Shown here: positions 242-16,434 of the stretch, one piece after another
Position numbering within the stretch: the stretch's first letter is position 1
How the letters are laid out: every line of letters starts with the position of its first letter
Assembly (NCBI GenBank): GCA_024103515.1
Contig: JAGGIK010000010.1
Span: 1-47,362 of the forward strand
Source of the DNA: Snodgrassella sp.
GTDB taxonomy: Bacteria > Pseudomonadota > Gammaproteobacteria > Burkholderiales > Neisseriaceae
DNA length: 47,362 nt
Direction of reading: 5' to 3'
Notes under the pieces: model-generated
Told to the model about the DNA's origin: nothing
Database searches by the model: none
The model's input: the letters and a program-made list of their open reading frames with translations, nothing else
Program-made: the position numbers and the translations under genes

Positions 242-1636
242 CTAATTTATTGTTGTAACAATTTCATATTCCTGCATTTTGTATAACAAGGTTCTTTTGC
301 TGATTCCAAGAGACTTGGCTGTGTTTTCTCGATGGCCGTGATTTCGTTTTAGTTCGTTGATAATCAGTTCTTTTTCGTAATTTTTGACTTTGTCTTTTAA
401 TGTGGCGCCATGTTGCTCATATATGGTTAAGTCCGGGTTAAAAGTTGGCATTTTATTTTGAGTAATAATGTGTGCTGGCAAATCTTGCGGATAGATAAAT
501 AGTCCGTTAGATATAATGACGGCATGTTCGATGGCGTTGGATAATTCGCGCACATTGCCCGGCCAGCTATATTGGTTAAGTACTTCGACTGCACTGATGG
601 AGAAATCCAGTAGTTCTTTGTTATTTTCGAGACAAAATTGATTGGCAAAATAGCGTGCCAGTAACATGACATCGTTTGTTCTTTCCCGCAATGGTGGCAA
701 ACATAGTCCCATCACATTCAGTCGATAAAATAAATCTTGTCTGAATTCTCCGCTGGCGATCATATCCTGCAAGCTGCGATTAGTAGCCGCGATCAATCTG
801 AAATCGGTTTTGATCGGTCTGTTGCCGCCTATTGGTTCAAATTCTTTTTCCTGAATTACCCGTAGGAGTTTTACCTGTAAGTTGGTTGACATTTCTGCAA
901 CTTCATCGAGAAAAAGTGTGCCTTGGTGCGCTCGTTCAAATAAACCTATCTGGCGTTGGTAAGCTCCGGTAAATGAACCTTTTTCATGTCCAAAAAGGGT
1001 GCTTTCTAATAAGGTTTCTGGCAATGCGCCACAATTAACTTTGATAAATGGACCGGTTGAACGAGTACTGTAAAAATGGATGGTCTTGGCCACCAGTTCT
1101 TTGCCTGTTCCGCTTTCTCCAGTAATTAATACGGTAGTTTTGGTTTGGGAAACCTTGGCGATATTGCGGCAAAGTTCCATCATATTTGGGCTATTAGTAA
1201 GAATATGCCCTTTGTGATCAGAATTGGATAATTCGATCTTCGGTGATAAGTTGATTCCCTGTTTTTTTGCTTTACTCAGTTCAAGTGTCCGTTTCACCAG
1301 TCCCTGTAGATCATTCAGATCAAACGGCTTCACAATATAATCAATGGCGCCTAGTTTAAGTGCTTCTACTGCGGTATCTACGCCCGCATAGGCGGTCATT
1401 AGGATAACGAATGTTTCAGGATCTGCTTTTTTTATCTGTTTAAGGGCATCTAGCCCTGACATACCTGGCAAGCGATTATCCATCAAAATGAGATCAATCG
1501 GTTGTTGTTGTATGATGGACATGGCTTCTTCAGCATTATCTACGGTGATAACCTGATAATGTTGCTGCGATAAGATGATTGATAACAGTTTACGCAGATT
1601 GAGTTCATCTTCAACAATTAAGATTTTTTCTGTCAT
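242..1636 (-). CDS. atoC: Sigma-54-dependent response regulator, AtoC type
   Basis: This is a cytoplasmic transcription activator of 464 residues. An N-terminal receiver domain has the phospho-acceptor Asp53 (in LMDN) and Lys103. A central AAA+ domain has Walker A GESGTGKE at 173-180, Walker B LFLDE ending at Glu245, and the sigma-54 contact loop at 220-225. That loop reads GSFTGA instead of the usual GAFTGA. A Fis-type helix-turn-helix (ENTAKSLGISKRTLLYKMQ) closes the protein. It lies 15 bases after the histidine kinase gene and next to atoDAEB, which it probably activates through the -24/-12 promoter near 7625-7640. NtrC-family membership is certain; the AtoC name rests on context and architecture. 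Confidence 0.9.
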   Translation of the reverse strand: MTEKILIVEDELNLRKLLSIILSQQHYQVITVDNAEEAMSIIQQQPIDLILMDNRLPGMSGLDALKQIKKADPETFVILMTAYAGVDTAVEALKLGAIDYIVKPFDLNDLQGLVKRTLELSKAKKQGINLSPKIELSNSDHKGHILTNSPNMMELCRNIAKVSQTKTTVLITGESGTGKELVAKTIHFYSTRSTGPFIKVNCGALPETLLESTLFGHEKGSFTGAYQRQIGLFERAHQGTLFLDEVAEMSTNLQVKLLRVIQEKEFEPIGGNRPIKTDFRLIAATNRSLQDMIASGEFRQDLFYRLNVMGLCLPPLRERTNDVMLLARYFANQFCLENNKELLDFSISAVEVLNQYSWPGNVRELSNAIEHAVIISNGLFIYPQDLPAHIITQNKMPTFNPDLTIYEQHGATLKDKVKNYEKELIINELKRNHGHRENTAKSLGISKRTLLYKMQEYEIVTTIN

Positions 1637-1651
1637 AAAATTTGGTTTAGT

Positions 1652-3472
1652 TCAGTTTACGGGAATGGCTAATTCTACGGTTACTCCGCTGGCGTTTTTA
1701 TTATTTTTGATGGTGATATGACCTTTATGTGAGGCAATAATTTTTTGTACCATGGGCAAGCCCAGACCTGTACCAGAAATTTTGGTTGTGAAAAATGGTG
1801 TGAAGATTTTTTCCAAGAGTTCTGGTTTGATACCTTCACCATTATCTTTTATGCGAATAAGCTGATATTTCTGATTGGTCGATAATAAGGTGGTTATTTC
1901 TATTACTCCTTTATCTTTTATCGCTTGTATGGCATTAATTAATAAATTCAATAAAGCTTGTTTGATCAGTTCTTTATCGACATATAACGCAGGTAATTGG
2001 TGGTCTAAGCATAGAGCAATGCTGATATTGTTGGAGCGATGGGAAGAGTTCACTAATACCAGAACTTCTTCAATTAAGGTATTAATTTGCGCTGATACAT
2101 AATAATTTTTGGACGGTACGGAAAAATCCAATAATTGCTGAATGACCTGATTAATTGAGTCCACTTCTTTTAGAATGATATCAATATATTCATTTTGCTC
2201 GTTACGTGGCAGATCACTTTGTAAATATTGCACAAATCCACGTACTGCTGCTAAGGGATTACGGATTTCATGGGCAATTCCGGCCATCAATTCTCCCAAT
2301 GCAACCAGTCGTTCGGTTTGTTGAATCAGTTTTTCTACTTCTTCGCGCTCGGTAATATCTTTAAAAATGACTACTGCACCAATAATTTTGCCCTGATAGT
2401 CTTTCAGGTGACTGGTGCTGGCTGAAATACGGATGATTTTTTTGGCTACCGGATAATCTATCTCAACACCAACGTGATCGACGCCATTGAATAGGGTGTC
2501 GAGTAGGGGGCTGTGGAAATTTTTGTCATCTACTAAGGTAGAATGTGGCTGACCCAGTACTTGTTCCAGTTTATAACCAGTCATTTTTTCAGCCGCTGGG
2601 TTAAGCATGGTAATGGCACCATTATTGTCTACAGTGATCACACCATCTAATGTGTTTTCCAATATCAGCTCATTCATAGTTTTGGTTTTTCTGAGTTTTT
2701 CTGCCAGACTATTGATACCATTTACAATTTCGTTTAATTCGCCCCGAATCTCTGGTAGGCGTGAGTCTAATGCATACGGCAGCTTTTCTAGCCCGTCTTT
2801 GATAATGTTAATATCGGTATTGAGTTTTTTTGATAAAAAGGAAGCAATAAATATGCAACTGAGCATGCATATCAAGCTGATGGTAAGCACATTTTTATCA
2901 AATACCAGTGTTTGTTTCTCAATATCATCTAGAGATTCATTTGCCCAGATATAACCTAAGATCTGCTTATTGCGCACAATTGGAATCATAGCATTCATGA
3001 TGTTGCCGCGTATTTGATTGCCACTGTCAACTATAGGCAGACCGTGAAGCATGACTTCGCGCCCTTTATGGGTGGCTGGGATAGATTTACCGACATTGGC
3101 TCCATAAGCTGCTTGCGGCGCATATACCACAATAGCATCCAGTTTTTTGTGATAATAGCCAGCAGCTATTTTGGGCATGTTTTGTAGTAATGGTTCTATT
3201 TTGGGAGATAATTTCTGATTAAGTAAATCAATTTGCTGATTTCGCGGTAATGTTGGATTGATCTGTTGATAGGTATCAGCCAGTAATAAATCAAGAGTTT
3301 TAGTCACAGCATAAAGCTTCTGAATTTTTTCCTGTCTGAGTAGGTCACGTCCTTCTTTATCGATTAATAACGCACAAACAATGATGGAAAAACAAGATAA
3401 TAGAGTGACCAGCAAAAATATGCGTGCGCTGATTTTGTCGGGATATAAGCGCTGAAAAAAACGGGCAGTCAT
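1652..3472 (-). CDS. atoS: Membrane sensor histidine kinase, AtoS type
   Basis: A 606-residue kinase with an N-terminal membrane helix (about 18-40), a periplasmic sensor region, a second membrane helix (about 195-214), a linker and a PAS domain (LENTLDGVITVDNNG onward). The HisKA domain carries the phospho-acceptor His in GIAHEIRNPLAAVRG, and the C-terminal ATPase domain has N (NLLINAIQAI), G1 (DNGEG) and G2 (GTGLGLPM) boxes. This is the AtoS layout (E. coli AtoS is close in length). It should phosphorylate the adjacent regulator. The gene is separated from atoB by about 210 bases with a strong hairpin, so it may have its own transcription start. The ligand cannot be read from sequence; acetoacetate or short-chain fatty acid sensing is inferred from the neighbours. 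Confidence 0.88.
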   Translation of the reverse strand: MTARFFQRLYPDKISARIFLLVTLLSCFSIIVCALLIDKEGRDLLRQEKIQKLYAVTKTLDLLLADTYQQINPTLPRNQQIDLLNQKLSPKIEPLLQNMPKIAAGYYHKKLDAIVVYAPQAAYGANVGKSIPATHKGREVMLHGLPIVDSGNQIRGNIMNAMIPIVRNKQILGYIWANESLDDIEKQTLVFDKNVLTISLICMLSCIFIASFLSKKLNTDINIIKDGLEKLPYALDSRLPEIRGELNEIVNGINSLAEKLRKTKTMNELILENTLDGVITVDNNGAITMLNPAAEKMTGYKLEQVLGQPHSTLVDDKNFHSPLLDTLFNGVDHVGVEIDYPVAKKIIRISASTSHLKDYQGKIIGAVVIFKDITEREEVEKLIQQTERLVALGELMAGIAHEIRNPLAAVRGFVQYLQSDLPRNEQNEYIDIILKEVDSINQVIQQLLDFSVPSKNYYVSAQINTLIEEVLVLVNSSHRSNNISIALCLDHQLPALYVDKELIKQALLNLLINAIQAIKDKGVIEITTLLSTNQKYQLIRIKDNGEGIKPELLEKIFTPFFTTKISGTGLGLPMVQKIIASHKGHITIKNNKNASGVTVELAIPVN

Positions 3473-3587
3473 AAATGCTCTATATCCTTAATGGCGAAGG
3501 TTTTGTTAACAAACAGTTTGCGTGATGCTGGACGGTATATTAAGATGGAATCGGATTATTGGTTAAATTAGTTGATTTAACAAGTCA

Positions 3588-3615
3588 GGTGATATTGGCA
3601 CAGGCCAATATCACC
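3588..3615. terminator. Strong 12-bp hairpin between atoB and atoS
   Basis: Arms GGTGATATTGGC (3588-3599) and GCCAATATCACC (3604-3615) are perfectly complementary with a 4-base loop. The T-rich run (ATTTTGTT) follows on the plus strand. On the minus strand, the direction of ato transcription, there is no good U-tract, so it may act as an mRNA-stabilising or attenuating stem-loop rather than a full terminator. Confidence 0.5.
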
Positions 3616-3684
3616 ATTTTGTTAACGTAATTTCACTTTATAATAAGCTGATTAGACATTCATCAGCTATGCAATGTATCGTAA

Positions 3685-4869
3685 TTAACAACGTTCGACA
3701 ATTACTGCAGTACCTTGTCCTCCACCAATACATAAAGTGGCCAGACCAAGTTGTTTATTACGGTGGATCATAGAATAAAGCAAAGTGACCAGAATGCGCG
3801 CACCGCTAGCGCCAATCGGATGGCCAAGGGCAATGGCACCTCCATGAATATTGGTTTTATCCATATCAAATTTTAGCTCGCGACCAACGCCCAAAAATTG
3901 CGCTGCAAAAGCTTCATTTGCTTCAATTAAATCAATATCTGATAGTTGTAGTGATGCTTTTTGCAAAGCCAGCTTGGTAGCAGGTACTGGACCCATGCCC
4001 ATAATGCTTGGATCAACTCCGCCAGAGGCGTAACTGCGGATATAAGCCAAAGGCTTTAAGTCTAGCTGTTTGGCTTTGCTTTCAGACATCACCACTAGTG
4101 CAGCGGCACCATCATTGATGCCCGAGGCATTGCCGGCAGTAACAGTGCCATCTTTCTTAAAGGCTGGGCGAAGTTTGGTTAAGCCTTCTATAGTGCTGCC
4201 AGCTTTAGGATATTCATCCTGTTTAAATATGATATCGCCTTTACGAGAATTAATGGTTACCGGCACGATTTCATCAACAAATGCACCATTATTGATTGCT
4301 TGTGTGGCCAGCTGTTGCGAACGTAAAGCCAATTCATCCTGTTCTTGTCGACTAATACCATATTGCTCGGCAATATTTTCAGCGGTTATGCCCATATGGT
4401 ATTGATTGGTGGCGCAGGTTAGCCCATCATTTACCATGGTATCGTACAATTCCGCGTTACCCATTTTTATGCCCCAACGCACTTTGCTATTGAGTAAATA
4501 CGGTGCCTGCGACATATTTTCCATACCACCAGCTACTACCACATCGTTGTCTCCGGCTAAGATGCTTTGAGCCGCTAGCGCGACTGATTTCAGACCGCTG
4601 CCACACACTTTATTAACGGTAAATGCCGGTATGGAGGTAGGCAGATTAGCGCGTAATGCAGCCTGACGAGCAGGGTTCTGGCCTAGACCGGCCTGTAGTA
4701 CATTTCCCATTATAACTTCGTTGACGGTACTTGCTTCAAGTGAAGCACGTTTTAACGCTTCTTCGATAACGATTTTACCCAGATCAAGCGCACTTACAGA
4801 AGTCAGCGCACCATTGAAGCTGCCGATTGCAGTGCGAGTAGCACTCACTATTACTGCTTTGTTCATCAT
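3685..4869 (-). CDS. atoB: Acetyl-CoA acetyltransferase (thiolase)
   Basis: This 394-residue enzyme interconverts two acetyl-CoA and acetoacetyl-CoA. It has the acyl-accepting Cys89 in NKVCGSG, the His of [17 protein letters not shown] and the C-terminal catalytic Cys in [10 protein letters not shown], and the usual length for the family. The open frame extends to 5028, but that extension overlaps atoE and is not thiolase-like. I place the start at ATG 4869 (or the next ATG at 4866), preceded by AAGGGA. It lies 17 bases after atoE and is the last gene of atoD-A-E-B. It should complete catabolism of acetoacetate produced by the CoA transferase, and could also run in reverse. Confidence 0.95.
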
Positions 4870-13103: not shown

Positions 13104-14366
13104 TTATATAGTTAATAAATCTGACCATTGTGTGGTATAGCACGGGCTGAGTTCTGTGCGGGTCATCTGCCAGTGGCTAGATTGGAGTTCGCTGCCAAGT
13201 TGGATACTGTTACGGCCATAACGGCTGGTGATGTTATCCCATGCACTCATCAGTTCGGTGCGGCTATCAGGTAGATTGGAGTAGAATAAGTCCTGTTGCT
13301 GGAAGGTTTGTGTTGGTTCAATGCCACTTAGTTCGATACCACATTTTTTGTATTCGTGGCCGGGGCGATAGATGTGGCGTAGCAGATTCTGTGCAATGTG
13401 GTTAAGGGTGAGGGTATTGGCGCTGGGTTGTGGCAATTTAATGAAATGGTAGCCATTGTATTGGGAAAGGTCGTGGCGAAAGCGATTGGTATAGATAAAT
13501 ACGCCGATGATATGTGCATGACTGTGTTGTTGGCGCAGTTTGGCGGCACCGGCGCTGATGTGATGGCTGATGGCCGCTTGCAGGCCTTCGAGGCTAGTAA
13601 TCATGTTGCCGAAACTGCGGCTGCGTACGATATTTTGTCGGTTGGGTTCTTCAATTATCAATTCGCTACAGGGGATACCCTGCATTTCGCGCTGGGCGCG
13701 TTCGAGTACAACGCCAAACTGTTTGCGTAGGGTGGGAGTATGAGCGTTGATGAAATCGAGGGCGGTATGGATGCCTTGAGCAGCGAGTTTCTGGCCAATT
13801 CGGCAGCCGATGCCCCAGATTTCGGTAACCGGTTCGCTGGCCAGAGCCCGTTGTTGAATATTATGGTTCCAGTCTGCCCAGACGACGACGCCGTCAAAGT
13901 GGTTACGGTGGCGTTTAGCCAGATGGTTGCAGAATTTGGCCAGTGTACGGGTTGGAGCAATGCCGACGCAGGTAGGAATACCAACCCATTGTTGGATGCG
14001 GTGGCGGAGATCTTGGCCAAGCTTATGCAGGTTGTTCAGGCCACGCAGATCGGCAAAGCATTCGTCGATAGAGTAGATTTCGATGGCCGGCACAAGCGAG
14101 GCGATGGTGTCCATCATGCGCCGTGATAGGTCAGCATACAGTTCGTAATTAGAGGAAAAAACGGTTAGTTTGCCCTGCTGCACCAGATGCTGAATCTGGA
14201 AGTAGGGTACGCCCATCCTGATGCCCATGTCTTTAGCTTCGTTAGAGCGGGAGATGACACAGCCATCGTTGTTACTCAGGACGATAATGGGCTGTTGTTT
14301 GAGTTCGGGGCGATAAATTTTTTCGCAGGAGCAATAGAAATTATTGCCGTCAATCAAGGCAAACAT
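13104..14366 (-). CDS. umuC: Error-prone Y-family DNA polymerase, UmuC
   Basis: A 420-residue catalytic subunit of a Pol V-like translesion polymerase. Catalytic carboxylates are Asp6 (MFALIDGNNF) and Asp101-Glu102 (YSIDECFADL), at the same numbers as in E. coli UmuC. A QQQDLF motif near the C-terminus fits a beta-clamp-binding peptide. The open frame continues upstream to 14831, but that part overlaps the nuclease gene and is not polymerase-like; ATG 14366 gives the family N-terminus. The start lies 17 bases inside the end of the preceding gene, so translation is probably coupled. It needs cleaved UmuD for activity in known systems, and umuD heads this operon. Confidence 0.94.
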   Translation of the reverse strand: MFALIDGNNFYCSCEKIYRPELKQQPIIVLSNNDGCVISRSNEAKDMGIRMGVPYFQIQHLVQQGKLTVFSSNYELYADLSRRMMDTIASLVPAIEIYSIDECFADLRGLNNLHKLGQDLRHRIQQWVGIPTCVGIAPTRTLAKFCNHLAKRHRNHFDGVVVWADWNHNIQQRALASEPVTEIWGIGCRIGQKLAAQGIHTALDFINAHTPTLRKQFGVVLERAQREMQGIPCSELIIEEPNRQNIVRSRSFGNMITSLEGLQAAISHHISAGAAKLRQQHSHAHIIGVFIYTNRFRHDLSQYNGYHFIKLPQPSANTLTLNHIAQNLLRHIYRPGHEYKKCGIELSGIEPTQTFQQQDLFYSNLPDSRTELMSAWDNITSRYGRNSIQLGSELQSSHWQMTRTELSPCYTTQWSDLLTI

Positions 14367-15747
14367 GAGCGGGATCCAGCGCTTGCAGGCGGTGTTTGTG
14401 TTGGTTGATGATTTGGTAAACGTCGCGATCAAGCTGTCCTTGTGGTTGGCTGAGGATGGTTTGTAGTTCGTCGGCATTACTGGCGCTACCCAGGTAAACC
14501 CAATGATGGAAGATATGGTATTTATGCCGCTCTTGAACGTAGGCATAGCTGTTAAATGGCCATGTGGCCAGTTTGATTGTTTGTAAGGATAGTGCCAGTT
14601 TGAGGTTATGCATGTCGGCAGTGATTTTGTTAATGCAGGCACCGCTACATTGGTGTAGCTGGTGACGGAAGCAGGGTCGATTGCTACGGCCTTTTTCGAT
14701 ACCAAGGGTTTGCAGGCATAGATCGGTGTTGCCGATGATGCTTTTGATGGCTTTTTGGGCATCGCTCTTATTATGAAACAGGCCGTAGTAGCGCTGTTGC
14801 TGGCTGAACTGGACTTGACGCATGGGTACAATGCTCAAGGTATGATAGCCGCGCGTGTTGGTGTTGAGCTGGAAGCTGAATAGGTCTTTCTGCCGACGCA
14901 AACGGCGATTAAGGATAGGCTGTTGCTGCTTGATTTGTGCCGATTCGGTGAGTAGGGCATCCAATTCGCCGCTACAAGGGATAACGTCAATTTTTTTGGC
15001 TTGTTGCGACAGGCTCATTTCTTTGCTGTTGTGTACATCCTGTCCAAAGTGGCTCATCAGCCGAGTTTTGACTCGTTTGCTTTTGCCGATATACAGAGGC
15101 AGGTTGTTATCGCCATAGATAAGGTAAACGCCATAATCATCACGAATGTTTTTCAGGCTGTCGTTATGCAAATGAGCTGGCAGGCTGGGGCGCTGCATGA
15201 TGGTTTTACAAGCCTGATGCAGGGTATCTTCAGTGAAGCTGTGTTTGAGCTTTTGCCAGAAATCGTAAATGGCGCGCGCATCAGCAAAGGCTCGGTGGCG
15301 GTTATGTATGTTAATATTATGACGTTCGATTATTTTATCCAGGCCATGGTATTTGTGCTGAGGGTAGAGCTGGCGTGACAGTTTGACAGTACACAGTTGC
15401 TGCGGGTTAAAGGTTCTGCCCAGCCGTTTAAACGCGGCTTTGATAAAGCCGTAATCAAAGCGTACGTTGTGGGCAACAAAGATGCGCTCTTTGAAGATGG
15501 CCGCGAGCTGGTCGGCAATGTGTTCATCGAAATGCGGTGCTTCGCGTACCATCTGGTTGCTGATGCCGGTGAGTGCTTGAATAAAAGCGGGTATACTGGT
15601 ATCAGGGTTAATCAGGGTATGGAAAAGACGTGGCTGTTGCTGACCAGCTTCGGTATAGATGACCGCGATTTCGGTAATGCGGTCTCGGGTGGCACGCCCA
15701 CCGGTGGTTTCTATGTCGATGAATGCAAGTTGCTGATCTAAAATCAT
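14350..15747 (-). CDS. DnaQ-like exonuclease fused to a GIY-YIG (UvrC/Cho-like) nuclease
   Basis: A 465-residue two-nuclease fusion. The first ~175 residues form a DEDD 3'-5' exonuclease: Asp11/Glu13 (FIDIETTGG), Asp98 (VAHNVRFDYG), His151/Asp156 (HRAFADARAIYDF). From about 204 a GIY-YIG domain follows: GVY (206-208), YIG (219-221), Arg and the likely catalytic Glu258 (LLTESAQIKQQQPILN). The remainder resembles the UvrC/Cho N-terminal half, including a Cys-containing CFRHQLHQCSGAC segment. Such fusions are annotated in bacteria as PolIII-epsilon-like proteins; their role in repair is poorly defined. Here it sits between umuD and umuC, with 10 bases before it and a 17-base overlap after it, suggesting a damage-inducible nuclease working with translesion synthesis. 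Confidence 0.88.
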   Translation of the reverse strand: MILDQQLAFIDIETTGGRATRDRITEIAVIYTEAGQQQPRLFHTLINPDTSIPAFIQALTGISNQMVREAPHFDEHIADQLAAIFKERIFVAHNVRFDYGFIKAAFKRLGRTFNPQQLCTVKLSRQLYPQHKYHGLDKIIERHNINIHNRHRAFADARAIYDFWQKLKHSFTEDTLHQACKTIMQRPSLPAHLHNDSLKNIRDDYGVYLIYGDNNLPLYIGKSKRVKTRLMSHFGQDVHNSKEMSLSQQAKKIDVIPCSGELDALLTESAQIKQQQPILNRRLRRQKDLFSFQLNTNTRGYHTLSIVPMRQVQFSQQQRYYGLFHNKSDAQKAIKSIIGNTDLCLQTLGIEKGRSNRPCFRHQLHQCSGACINKITADMHNLKLALSLQTIKLATWPFNSYAYVQERHKYHIFHHWVYLGSASNADELQTILSQPQGQLDRDVYQIINQHKHRLQALDPAHVCLD

Positions 15748-15757
15748 AATTTATGTA

Positions 15758-16381
15758 TTAGCGAATGTGTTTGATAACATAAGTCACCACGCCAACAATG
15801 GCGAGGGTGTCACCTTCGGTAAAGATGAAATTGGGATAAGCCTGACTGTTGTTTTCCGAATGTAGTTCGATACAGCCGTTGTCAAGCTGATGTAAGCGTT
15901 TGATGGTGAATTCGTTGCCTAAATCGGCCATAACGATATCACGGTGTTTAGGGATTATGGAACGATCGATAATCAGCAGATCATCGCGACTGATGCCGGC
16001 ATCGTGCATGGAGTCTCCGCCACAGCGTACGGCAATGGTGGCGGCCTGATTTTTGATCAGGTACTGGTTGAAATCCAGATAATCGCTGATGTAAGGCTCC
16101 GCAGGACTGGGAAAACCAGCCGGAATGGTTTCTGTGGCCAAGGGAATGTTTAACTGGCTAAGATGCTCGGCTATTTCCCAGCTATCGACCGGAAGATGTT
16201 GTGCCGGATACAAGCGGGTACCGGCTAGCTGGCTGATCATGTGTTCCACGGCGGGGATCAGGCTGACGGGAATACGTTTGACTATTTTCGGTTCAGCAAT
16301 TTTTGCTTTGCGTCCGGCGCCGGCTCTGGCTCCGCCGTGTCCATTGGATTTTGCTGATGAATCAACCACAAATCTGCTCAT
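15758..16381 (-). CDS. umuD: UmuD-like self-cleaving S24 protein with N-terminal extension (probable repressor)
   Basis: A 207-residue S24-family protein; E. coli UmuD has 139. The cleavage site is Ala88-Gly89 (IPAGFPSPAE), the nucleophile Ser124 (GGDSMHDAG) and the general base Lys161 (EFTIKRL); the Gly-to-Ser and Ser-to-Lys spacings (35 and 37) equal those of E. coli UmuD. The N-terminal 80 residues carry a basic GGARAGAGRKAK segment followed by a helical region, absent from classical UmuD. Acinetobacter UmuDAb has a similar extension and acts as a LexA-like repressor. A perfect palindrome directly before the start codon supports autoregulation. Its cleaved form should also assist UmuC. Repressor function is inferred. 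No Shine-Dalgarno sequence precedes the ATG. Confidence 0.88.
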   Translation of the reverse strand: MSRFVVDSSAKSNGHGGARAGAGRKAKIAEPKIVKRIPVSLIPAVEHMISQLAGTRLYPAQHLPVDSWEIAEHLSQLNIPLATETIPAGFPSPAEPYISDYLDFNQYLIKNQAATIAVRCGGDSMHDAGISRDDLLIIDRSIIPKHRDIVMADLGNEFTIKRLHQLDNGCIELHSENNSQAYPNFIFTEGDTLAIVGVVTYVIKHIR

Positions 16382-16404
16382 CTTGATTAAGTTATTTAAT
16401 CAAG
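16382..16404. promoter_or_regulatory. Palindromic operator at the umuD start
   Basis: Perfect inverted repeat with arms CTTGATTAA (16382-16390) and TTAATCAAG (16396-16404) around a 5-base centre. It fills the 23 bases before the umuD ATG and covers the predicted transcription start. The TTGA-N13-TCAA outline matches what I recall of the UmuDAb binding site in Acinetobacter. It is a likely autorepression site. Confidence 0.72.
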
Positions 16405-16405
16405 A

Positions 16406-16434
16406 ATGGTAGGATTTTGTTTTATTTGCGTCAA
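16406..16434 (-). promoter_or_regulatory. Promoter of the umuD-nuclease-umuC operon
   Basis: On the minus strand TTGACG (-35, 16434-16429) is followed after exactly 17 bases by TACCAT (-10, 16411-16406). The palindromic operator begins two bases after the -10 box, so a bound repressor would block initiation. The 5' leader would be only about 20-25 bases. Confidence 0.65.

Follow-up and report, generated by a model that had tools for sequence, protein, structure and literature searches.

The locus analysed here raises the question of whether a umuD-type gene in a member of the genus Snodgrassella (Neisseriaceae) encodes an ordinary UmuD protein or one that also represses its own operon. The gene lies on contig JAGGIK010000010.1 (assembly GCA_024103515.1), of which the window, the whole stretch of 47,362 nucleotides from position 1 to 47,362, was analysed; the source assembly comprises 2.05 Mb in 108 contigs and is 86% complete. 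The original prediction, a switch of the type formed by UmuDAb in Acinetobacter, is supported at the level of sequence by homology of the N-terminal regions, by the outline of the operator, which recurs within the genus and across further genera of the Neisseriaceae, by a relative in which both the N-terminal region and the operator have decayed and by the lack of a match to the LexA DNA-binding domain (PF01726) in the Neisseriaceae genomes searched. We consider it highly probable that the protein is a UmuDAb-type self-repressor of a umuD - exonuclease/Cho - umuC unit, which would be relieved by self-cleavage upon DNA damage.

The umuD gene and its operon

The umuD-type gene (15758..16381; genes, protein features and promoter elements given below are all on the reverse strand) is recognised as an open reading frame and by family models, and encodes a protein of 207 residues, the proposed self-cleaving repressor. 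A Pfam search places Peptidase_S24 at residues 84-199, and the NCBIfam model NF007621 (UmuD subfamily) matches residues 88-204 with 127.5 bits against a cut-off of 110; even at a threshold of E 1, Pfam recognises nothing in the first 80 residues. A script check bore out the cleavage site Ala88-Gly89 (16115..16120), which is invariant in two alignments, and the catalytic residues Ser124 (16010..16012) and Lys161 (15899..15901), as well as their UmuD-like spacing, the intervals of 36 and 37 residues being those of A83-S119-K156 in UmuDAb as numbered in PMC4807011. The best solved relative is E. coli UmuD (8gmt, E 2.4e-24), residues 13-139 of which align with 77-207 of the window protein, in agreement with the predicted extra N-terminal length of about 64 residues. 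The nearest named kin are proteins of Snodgrassella species (84-87% identity) and of an uncultured Neisseriaceae bacterium (92%).

The second gene of the operon (14350..15747) encodes a 465-residue protein in which domain and family models recognise a DnaQ-type exonuclease (RNase_T, 3e-34) joined to a GIY-YIG/Cho-like part (GIY-YIG, 3e-5; excinuclease Cho model, 3.5e-65 and 220 bits, below the cut-off of 367). It is followed by umuC (13104..14366), with 420 residues from the ATG at 14366, the IMS, IMS_C and DUF4113 domains and 413.6 bits to the UmuC model, below the cut-off of 431. A frame of similar size also separates umuD from umuC in four loci of the genus (L010, L011, L014 and L018), and umuC comes directly after umuD, without an intervening gene, in three loci of other Neisseriaceae (L034, L035 and L038).

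The N-terminal region

The candidate for DNA binding spans residues 15-53 (16223..16339), delimited by alignment, homology and structural modelling, and consists of the arm HGGARAGAGRK at residues 15-25, which holds the basic GGARAGAGRK segment originally singled out, the motif RIPVS and a predicted helix at residues 42-53. In a 28-row alignment of N-terminal regions G16, G17, R19, A22, G23, R24, R36 and P38 are invariant. The region is identical to that of UmuDAb at 26 of 79 positions (E 1e-9, in a single BLASTP comparison), and the family phrog_21736 matches the N-terminal regions of both the window protein (5.4e-7) and UmuDAb (1.7e-17). These similarities bear on the reading that the protein is an ordinary UmuD whose long arm contacts RecA or UmuC and whose neighbouring palindrome is unrelated, a reading that agrees with the NCBIfam assignment, with the operon shared with umuC and with an arm that lacks a recognised DNA-binding domain. 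We regard it as very unlikely, as the arm has its homologue in the stretch of UmuDAb that is described as required for repression (PMC4807011) and is linked to the operator across the class, as set out below.

The winged helix originally expected within residues 1-80 was not predicted, either in the window protein (mean pLDDT 73.8) or in the viral relative L232 (mean pLDDT 76.4); in both models the C-terminal part is well predicted, the tail contains a single helix (residues 42-53 and 31-44, respectively) and the arm before it is of low confidence. As the models are DNA-free monomers built from shallow alignments, they are weak evidence against such a fold. A search of solved structures with a profile of the 28 N-terminal regions gave matches at chance level (E 0.69 and 0.73). 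For UmuDAb itself, the helices obtained by AlphaFold and I-TASSER are described as resembling those of LexA, and mutations in them as lowering binding only slightly (PMC11332147). Our guess from the models is that the tail perhaps makes contact through its arm and a strand-helix element in a manner like that of ribbon-helix-helix proteins, which would fit the near-normal binding reported for the UmuDAb helix mutants (PMC11332147).

A palindromic candidate operator at the umuD promoter

The space between the -10 element and the start codon is filled, as predicted, by a perfect 9+5+9 palindrome of 23 bp, CTTGATTAA-GTTAT-TTAATCAAG (16382-16404), which directly adjoins the umuD ATG and is taken as the operator (16382..16404, no strand assigned) from its sequence, a genome scan and its conservation. 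On the umuD strand it has the form TTGA-N4-ATAAC-N4-TCAA, so that the proposed TTGA-N13-TCAA outline is correct. The promoter reads TTGACG-N17-TACCAT, followed by one base, the palindrome and the ATG, where the -10 element TACCAT (16406..16411) and the -35 element TTGACG (16429..16434), 17 bp apart, were read from the sequence and chosen as the same pair by a script, and the -35 element is kept in L010-L018. No other place in the window comes within three mismatches of the palindrome, 100 shuffles giving 0.06 such matches on average, and permutation of the promoter region yielded neither a palindrome (0/100) nor an equally good arm score (0/100). The proven operator of UmuDAb is given as TTGA(N4)GTWAC(N4)TCAA, with the GTWAC core counting for more than the arms in A. 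baumannii (PMC11332147). The window site, TTGA TTAA ATAAC TTAA TCAA, agrees with it at 12 of 13 fixed positions, its core ATAAC departing from the GTWAC consensus at one base.

The exact 23-mer is present in seven of the nine genus-type loci taken from named records (L010-L018); in L011 the outermost base is changed, in L018 three bases are changed, and the flank further upstream is variable across the nine. Two further members of the genus lack the exact palindrome, which says little, umuD being cut by a contig end in G077 and without a match in G078. Within the 2.05 Mb assembly the palindrome has one exact match, at the umuD promoter, and five places with three mismatches each, compared with one in a reversed control; no recognisable repair gene lies beside the three of these five that were inspected (L007-L009). 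A scan with the operator form gave 26 forward matches against 13 in the control and added two places with two mismatches (L305 and L306), neither of which precedes a recognisable repair gene. A small excess of weak operator sites elsewhere in the genome is thus conceivable, and with one exact site the genome gives no sign that several umuDC operons are controlled in trans, as they are by UmuDAb.

In the window the palindrome runs up to the ATG with no clear Shine-Dalgarno sequence in between, so that it could also be read as an mRNA hairpin that controls translation at the start codon. A transcript from the -10 element at 16411-16406 would, by expectation, start inside the left arm and form an incomplete stem, the UmuDAb site is described as overlapping -35 elements and so lies outside the message (PMC7273328), the promoter scan places the sites of L069, L071 and L106 upstream of the -10 element, and the GT(N)AC core, which would form the loop, is conserved. 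The hairpin reading was rejected as weak on the position of the UmuDAb site and on the promoter scan, and is in our estimate barely conceivable.

Operators and N-terminal regions in other Neisseriaceae

Among 83 genomes covered by a family search, 30 matched, and nine loci outside the genus have the N-terminal motif. At seven of these nine the umuD promoter matches the UmuDAb operator at 12 or 13 positions: all 13 in L034, L035, L037, L038 and L039, and 12 in L033 and L036. The remaining two, L040 and L042, keep GTTAC and have an additional base in their right half, between the core and the right arm, with 9 and 8 of 13 positions, respectively; both belong to one Neisseriaceae genus, and in L042 the Ala-Gly cleavage site is apparently changed as well. 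The protein and site of L033 are identical to those of L019 from Neisseria sicca, where a resolvase-like frame precedes umuD and its operator (within 1302-4031), a hint of a mobile element.

Within the genus, L018 amounts to an experiment of nature. It shares 93% identity with the window protein past the cleavage site and 42% over the first 60 residues, compared with 73-92% over those residues in six other genus loci; the GGARAGAGR segment is gone, RIPVS is altered and the operator is down to 10 of 13 positions. Such joint decay of tail and operator is what contact between the two predicts, and L018, which has the same protein as L032 and probably comes from the same genome, counts as a single case.

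LexA and other S24 proteins

The LexA DNA-binding domain PF01726 has no match in the 86% complete assembly of the window's own genome, and none in the 21 Neisseriaceae genomes (12 of the genus, including the window's, and nine others) among the 60 searched; RecA is present in the window's own genome. Control of the window umuD promoter by LexA was rejected, as its best CTGT-N8-ACAG box has 4 of 8 positions and PF01726 has no match in the assembly. The premise that Neisseria lacks LexA calls for caution, as the gonococcus is described as having the LexA-like repressor NG1427 (PMC3040777) and the window's own genome encodes further S24 proteins, described below. Across the class, PF01726 matches 231 of 369 genomes, with 8 of 28 genomes that hold a tailed UmuD compared with 223 of 341 others (Fisher 1.8e-4), where the 28 exclude and the 341 include the window's own genome, and where tailed UmuDs are recorded only if their loci were fetched, one (G140) being assigned by visual inspection of a frame that a contig edge truncates. 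Tailed UmuDs that have an operator of their own and lack a LexA box are also found in some genomes with LexA.

The window's own genome encodes four other S24 proteins (on contigs C75, C24, C40 and C47; L002-L005), which by eye look like helix-turn-helix repressors and are not UmuD-like in appearance. The one on C40 adjoins what looks like clpX and is a candidate for comparison with gonococcal NG1427. The presence of these four, together with the LexA-like protein of the gonococcus (PMC3040777), gives room to a reading in which the palindrome is the true operator of another repressor, such as an S24 protein substituting for LexA in the manner of NG1427, with UmuD merely its target; against it, the site follows the UmuDAb consensus and decays together with the tail in L018.

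Tail and operator across the class

Promoters of umuD were collected from a class search (369 genomes, 30 loci fetched), from IMG/VR and from the loci above; eight loci were dropped for a contig edge or a missing start codon, and 128 were reduced by upstream similarity to 73, of which 38 have the GAGR motif (tailed) and 35 do not (tailless). Sites were scored out of 12 by their arms, TTGAWT-N8..11-AWTCAA, with the core ignored. With shared ancestry uncorrected in each comparison, 10/12 is reached by 33 of 38 tailed and 10 of 35 tailless promoters (Fisher 3.8e-7), 11/12 by 27 and 8 (Fisher 5.4e-5), and a LexA box of at least 7/8 is found at 0 of 38 tailed and 16 of 35 tailless promoters (Fisher 7.7e-7); these values overstate the link because the loci share ancestry. 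The 10/12 threshold is lax, since among 433 AT-rich windows of these loci, with an AT content of 0.60 or more, 88 reach it and 9 reach 11/12. A full score of 12/12 occurs in 0 of all 1394 windows compared with 14 of 38 tailed promoters. A palindrome test that assumes no model (p at most 0.05) also favours the tailed group (17 of 38 vs 6 of 35) and is weaker than the arm test.

A GT(N)AC core, which had no part in the score, is present between the arms at 27 of the 33 tailed sites, compared with an expectation of 1.8 when the spacers are shuffled; the window site belongs to the six that lack it. The spacing is that of UmuDAb, 9, in ten of the 33, 8 in three, 10 in ten and 11 in ten. The exact 21-bp UmuDAb pattern is otherwise rare in the 369 class genomes and hardly exceeds a reversed control (28 sites vs 22), as loci outside the Neisseriaceae and the Acinetobacter group mostly have arms separated by one or two more bases.

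A further 32 class UmuD regions, of which three were left out, repeat the pattern: all five with the N-terminal region reach 10/12 and none has a LexA box of 7/8, while among the 24 without it, several of which resemble LexA rather than UmuD, two reach 10/12 and five have a LexA box. Viral relatives with the N-terminal region mostly repeat the operator site as well (27 looked at, 25 tested and 8 distinct without near copies, with rows L250-L302 left out), the listed site lacking GT(N)AC in two of the eight (L223 and L232). The profile of the 28 N-terminal regions, 48 positions long, picked out 2 of 120 genomes of the phylum, and the full-length search found tailed UmuDs in 28 class genomes and the window's; as the two draws differ and the short profile is insensitive, no rate is taken from them. 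In a tree built from the C-terminal parts, with 72 rows (the 73-promoter set minus one), few columns and a tailless group rich in prophages, the tail changes at least 12 times on the best tree and four times on well-supported branches; a tree-based test of tail against operator in independent pairs had four contrasts and showed nothing.

The ten tailless promoters at 10/12 comprise six in the UmuDAb clade, L018, L127, and two (L079 and L179) at shuffle level. L127, a viral-contig UmuD without a tail, has a clean TTGATTTCGTACACAATCAA site upstream. Control in trans by UmuDAb is published for Acinetobacter, and because of it the 13/13 sites kept at three Acinetobacter UmuDs without the N-terminal region (L107, L108 and L109) are as expected. 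The genomes of the two regionless class UmuDs that reach 10/12 (L199 in G338 and L200 in G300) also own a tailed UmuD, as if these too were controlled in trans. The operator at some tailless UmuDs is a further point in favour of another repressor acting on the window site, but these are mostly members of the Acinetobacter clade or L199 and L200, and across the class the operator accompanies the tail; with the UmuDAb consensus and the L018 case also against it, we consider control by another repressor unlikely.

A proposed damage switch

The preferred reading, self-repression of the UmuDAb type, would operate as follows, where every step from operator binding and repression through cleavage driven by RecA to induction, and the dual function of the protein as well, is proposed. 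Uncut UmuD would pair via its UmuD/S24 part, as suggested by UmuDAb and UmuD, and the N-terminal arm and helix would grip the palindrome. The operator covers the expected transcription start, so that bound repressor would block the polymerase and silence umuD, the exonuclease/Cho gene and umuC. Upon DNA damage, RecA filaments would provoke the cut at Ala88-Gly89, the tail would leave and the promoter would open, and the remaining UmuD'-like part could serve UmuC, one cut thus both lifting repression and yielding the active polymerase subunit. The window UmuD would need to perform both tasks because the other S24 proteins of the genome do not look like UmuD. The double role is put forward with caution because UmuDAb of A. 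baylyi is described as unable to replace UmuD in polymerase function (PMC4807011).

More broadly, we lean towards the view that UmuDAb is one member of an old and wide class of self-repressing UmuD proteins in the Gammaproteobacteria (in the GTDB sense, including the former Betaproteobacteria). In this class GG.R.GAGR[KP]...T..RVP.S and the following helix would form a DNA-binding module without a solved relative, probably not a helix-turn-helix, that reads TTGAWT...GT(N)AC...AWTCAA in place of the LexA box, and a single self-cleavage would release the operon from repression and at the same time yield the active polymerase subunit. If so, LexA control of umuDC would be an alternative state, reached where the tail is lost. 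UmuDAb is treated as a feature of Acinetobacter or the Moraxellaceae in the descriptions available (PMC11332147, PMC4807011, PMC8565304, PMC7273328), and among the titles listed in searches of an open-licence library none reports a UmuDAb-type self-repressor in Neisseriaceae or as a general class. The Neisseriaceae, a family in which no LexA was found by its DNA-binding domain, thereby gain a concrete and testable candidate for a damage switch, UmuDAb may be one case of a general LexA-free control of the mutagenic polymerase, and the DNA contacts of UmuDAb could be traced through the many naturally occurring combinations of N-terminal region and operator.

Comparison with known systems

Several regulators resemble the proposed switch in part. 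HdiR and the SOS regulators of Bacteroidetes are likewise S24 proteins in place of LexA, and are set apart by their description as phage-repressor-like with other motifs (PMC8565304). NG1427 of N. gonorrhoeae, likened by its description, is a LexA-like damage repressor of the same family that is cleaved with RecA, and differs in being called a LexA homologue and in coming from a strain described as without predicted UmuD/UmuC (PMC3040777). With E. coli UmuD the window protein shares a self-cleaving C-terminal part and a umuC partner gene, but it has about 64 extra N-terminal residues and its own operator replaces the LexA box. LexA is also an S24 self-cleaving repressor acting on a palindrome at its own promoter, as in the UmuDAb model and as predicted here; the window UmuD, in contrast, has neither the winged helix-turn-helix of PF01726 nor a CTGT-N8-ACAG box (best 4/8).

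The closest likeness is to UmuDAb. A 203-residue UmuD on CAKLQH020000001.1, which served as the UmuDAb in the N-terminal comparison above, has E24, K40, N41, A83-G84, S119 and K156 as published for UmuDAb, with TTGAAAATGTAACTTTTTCAA upstream of its gene and a small divergent gene beside it that is taken as ddrR. This 328-kb record is labelled phage and is apparently a bacterial contig; L106 and L110 (Acinetobacter phage MD-2021a, 328 and 378 kb), which carry UmuDAb together with ordinary bacterial genes, look like bacterial contigs. No DdrR-like gene is found in the window or in 14 other loci of the same genome, and DdrR is counted as a trait of the genus Acinetobacter rather than of UmuDAb-type repressors generally because it is reported as unique to that genus (PMC7273328). 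The window UmuD differs from UmuDAb of A. baumannii and A. baylyi in having ATAAC rather than GTWAC at the operator core, an operator that follows the -10 element instead of overlapping the -35, one genomic site rather than several umuDC operons as targets, an exonuclease/Cho gene within the operon and no DdrR-like neighbour in the window. It shares with UmuDAb its length (207 and 203 residues), the spacing of cleavage and catalytic residues, a homologous N-terminal region, the operator outline, a setting in which LexA is not found, and the position of its gene as the first of its own umuDC unit, as is described for UmuDAb in several Acinetobacter species (PMC4807011).
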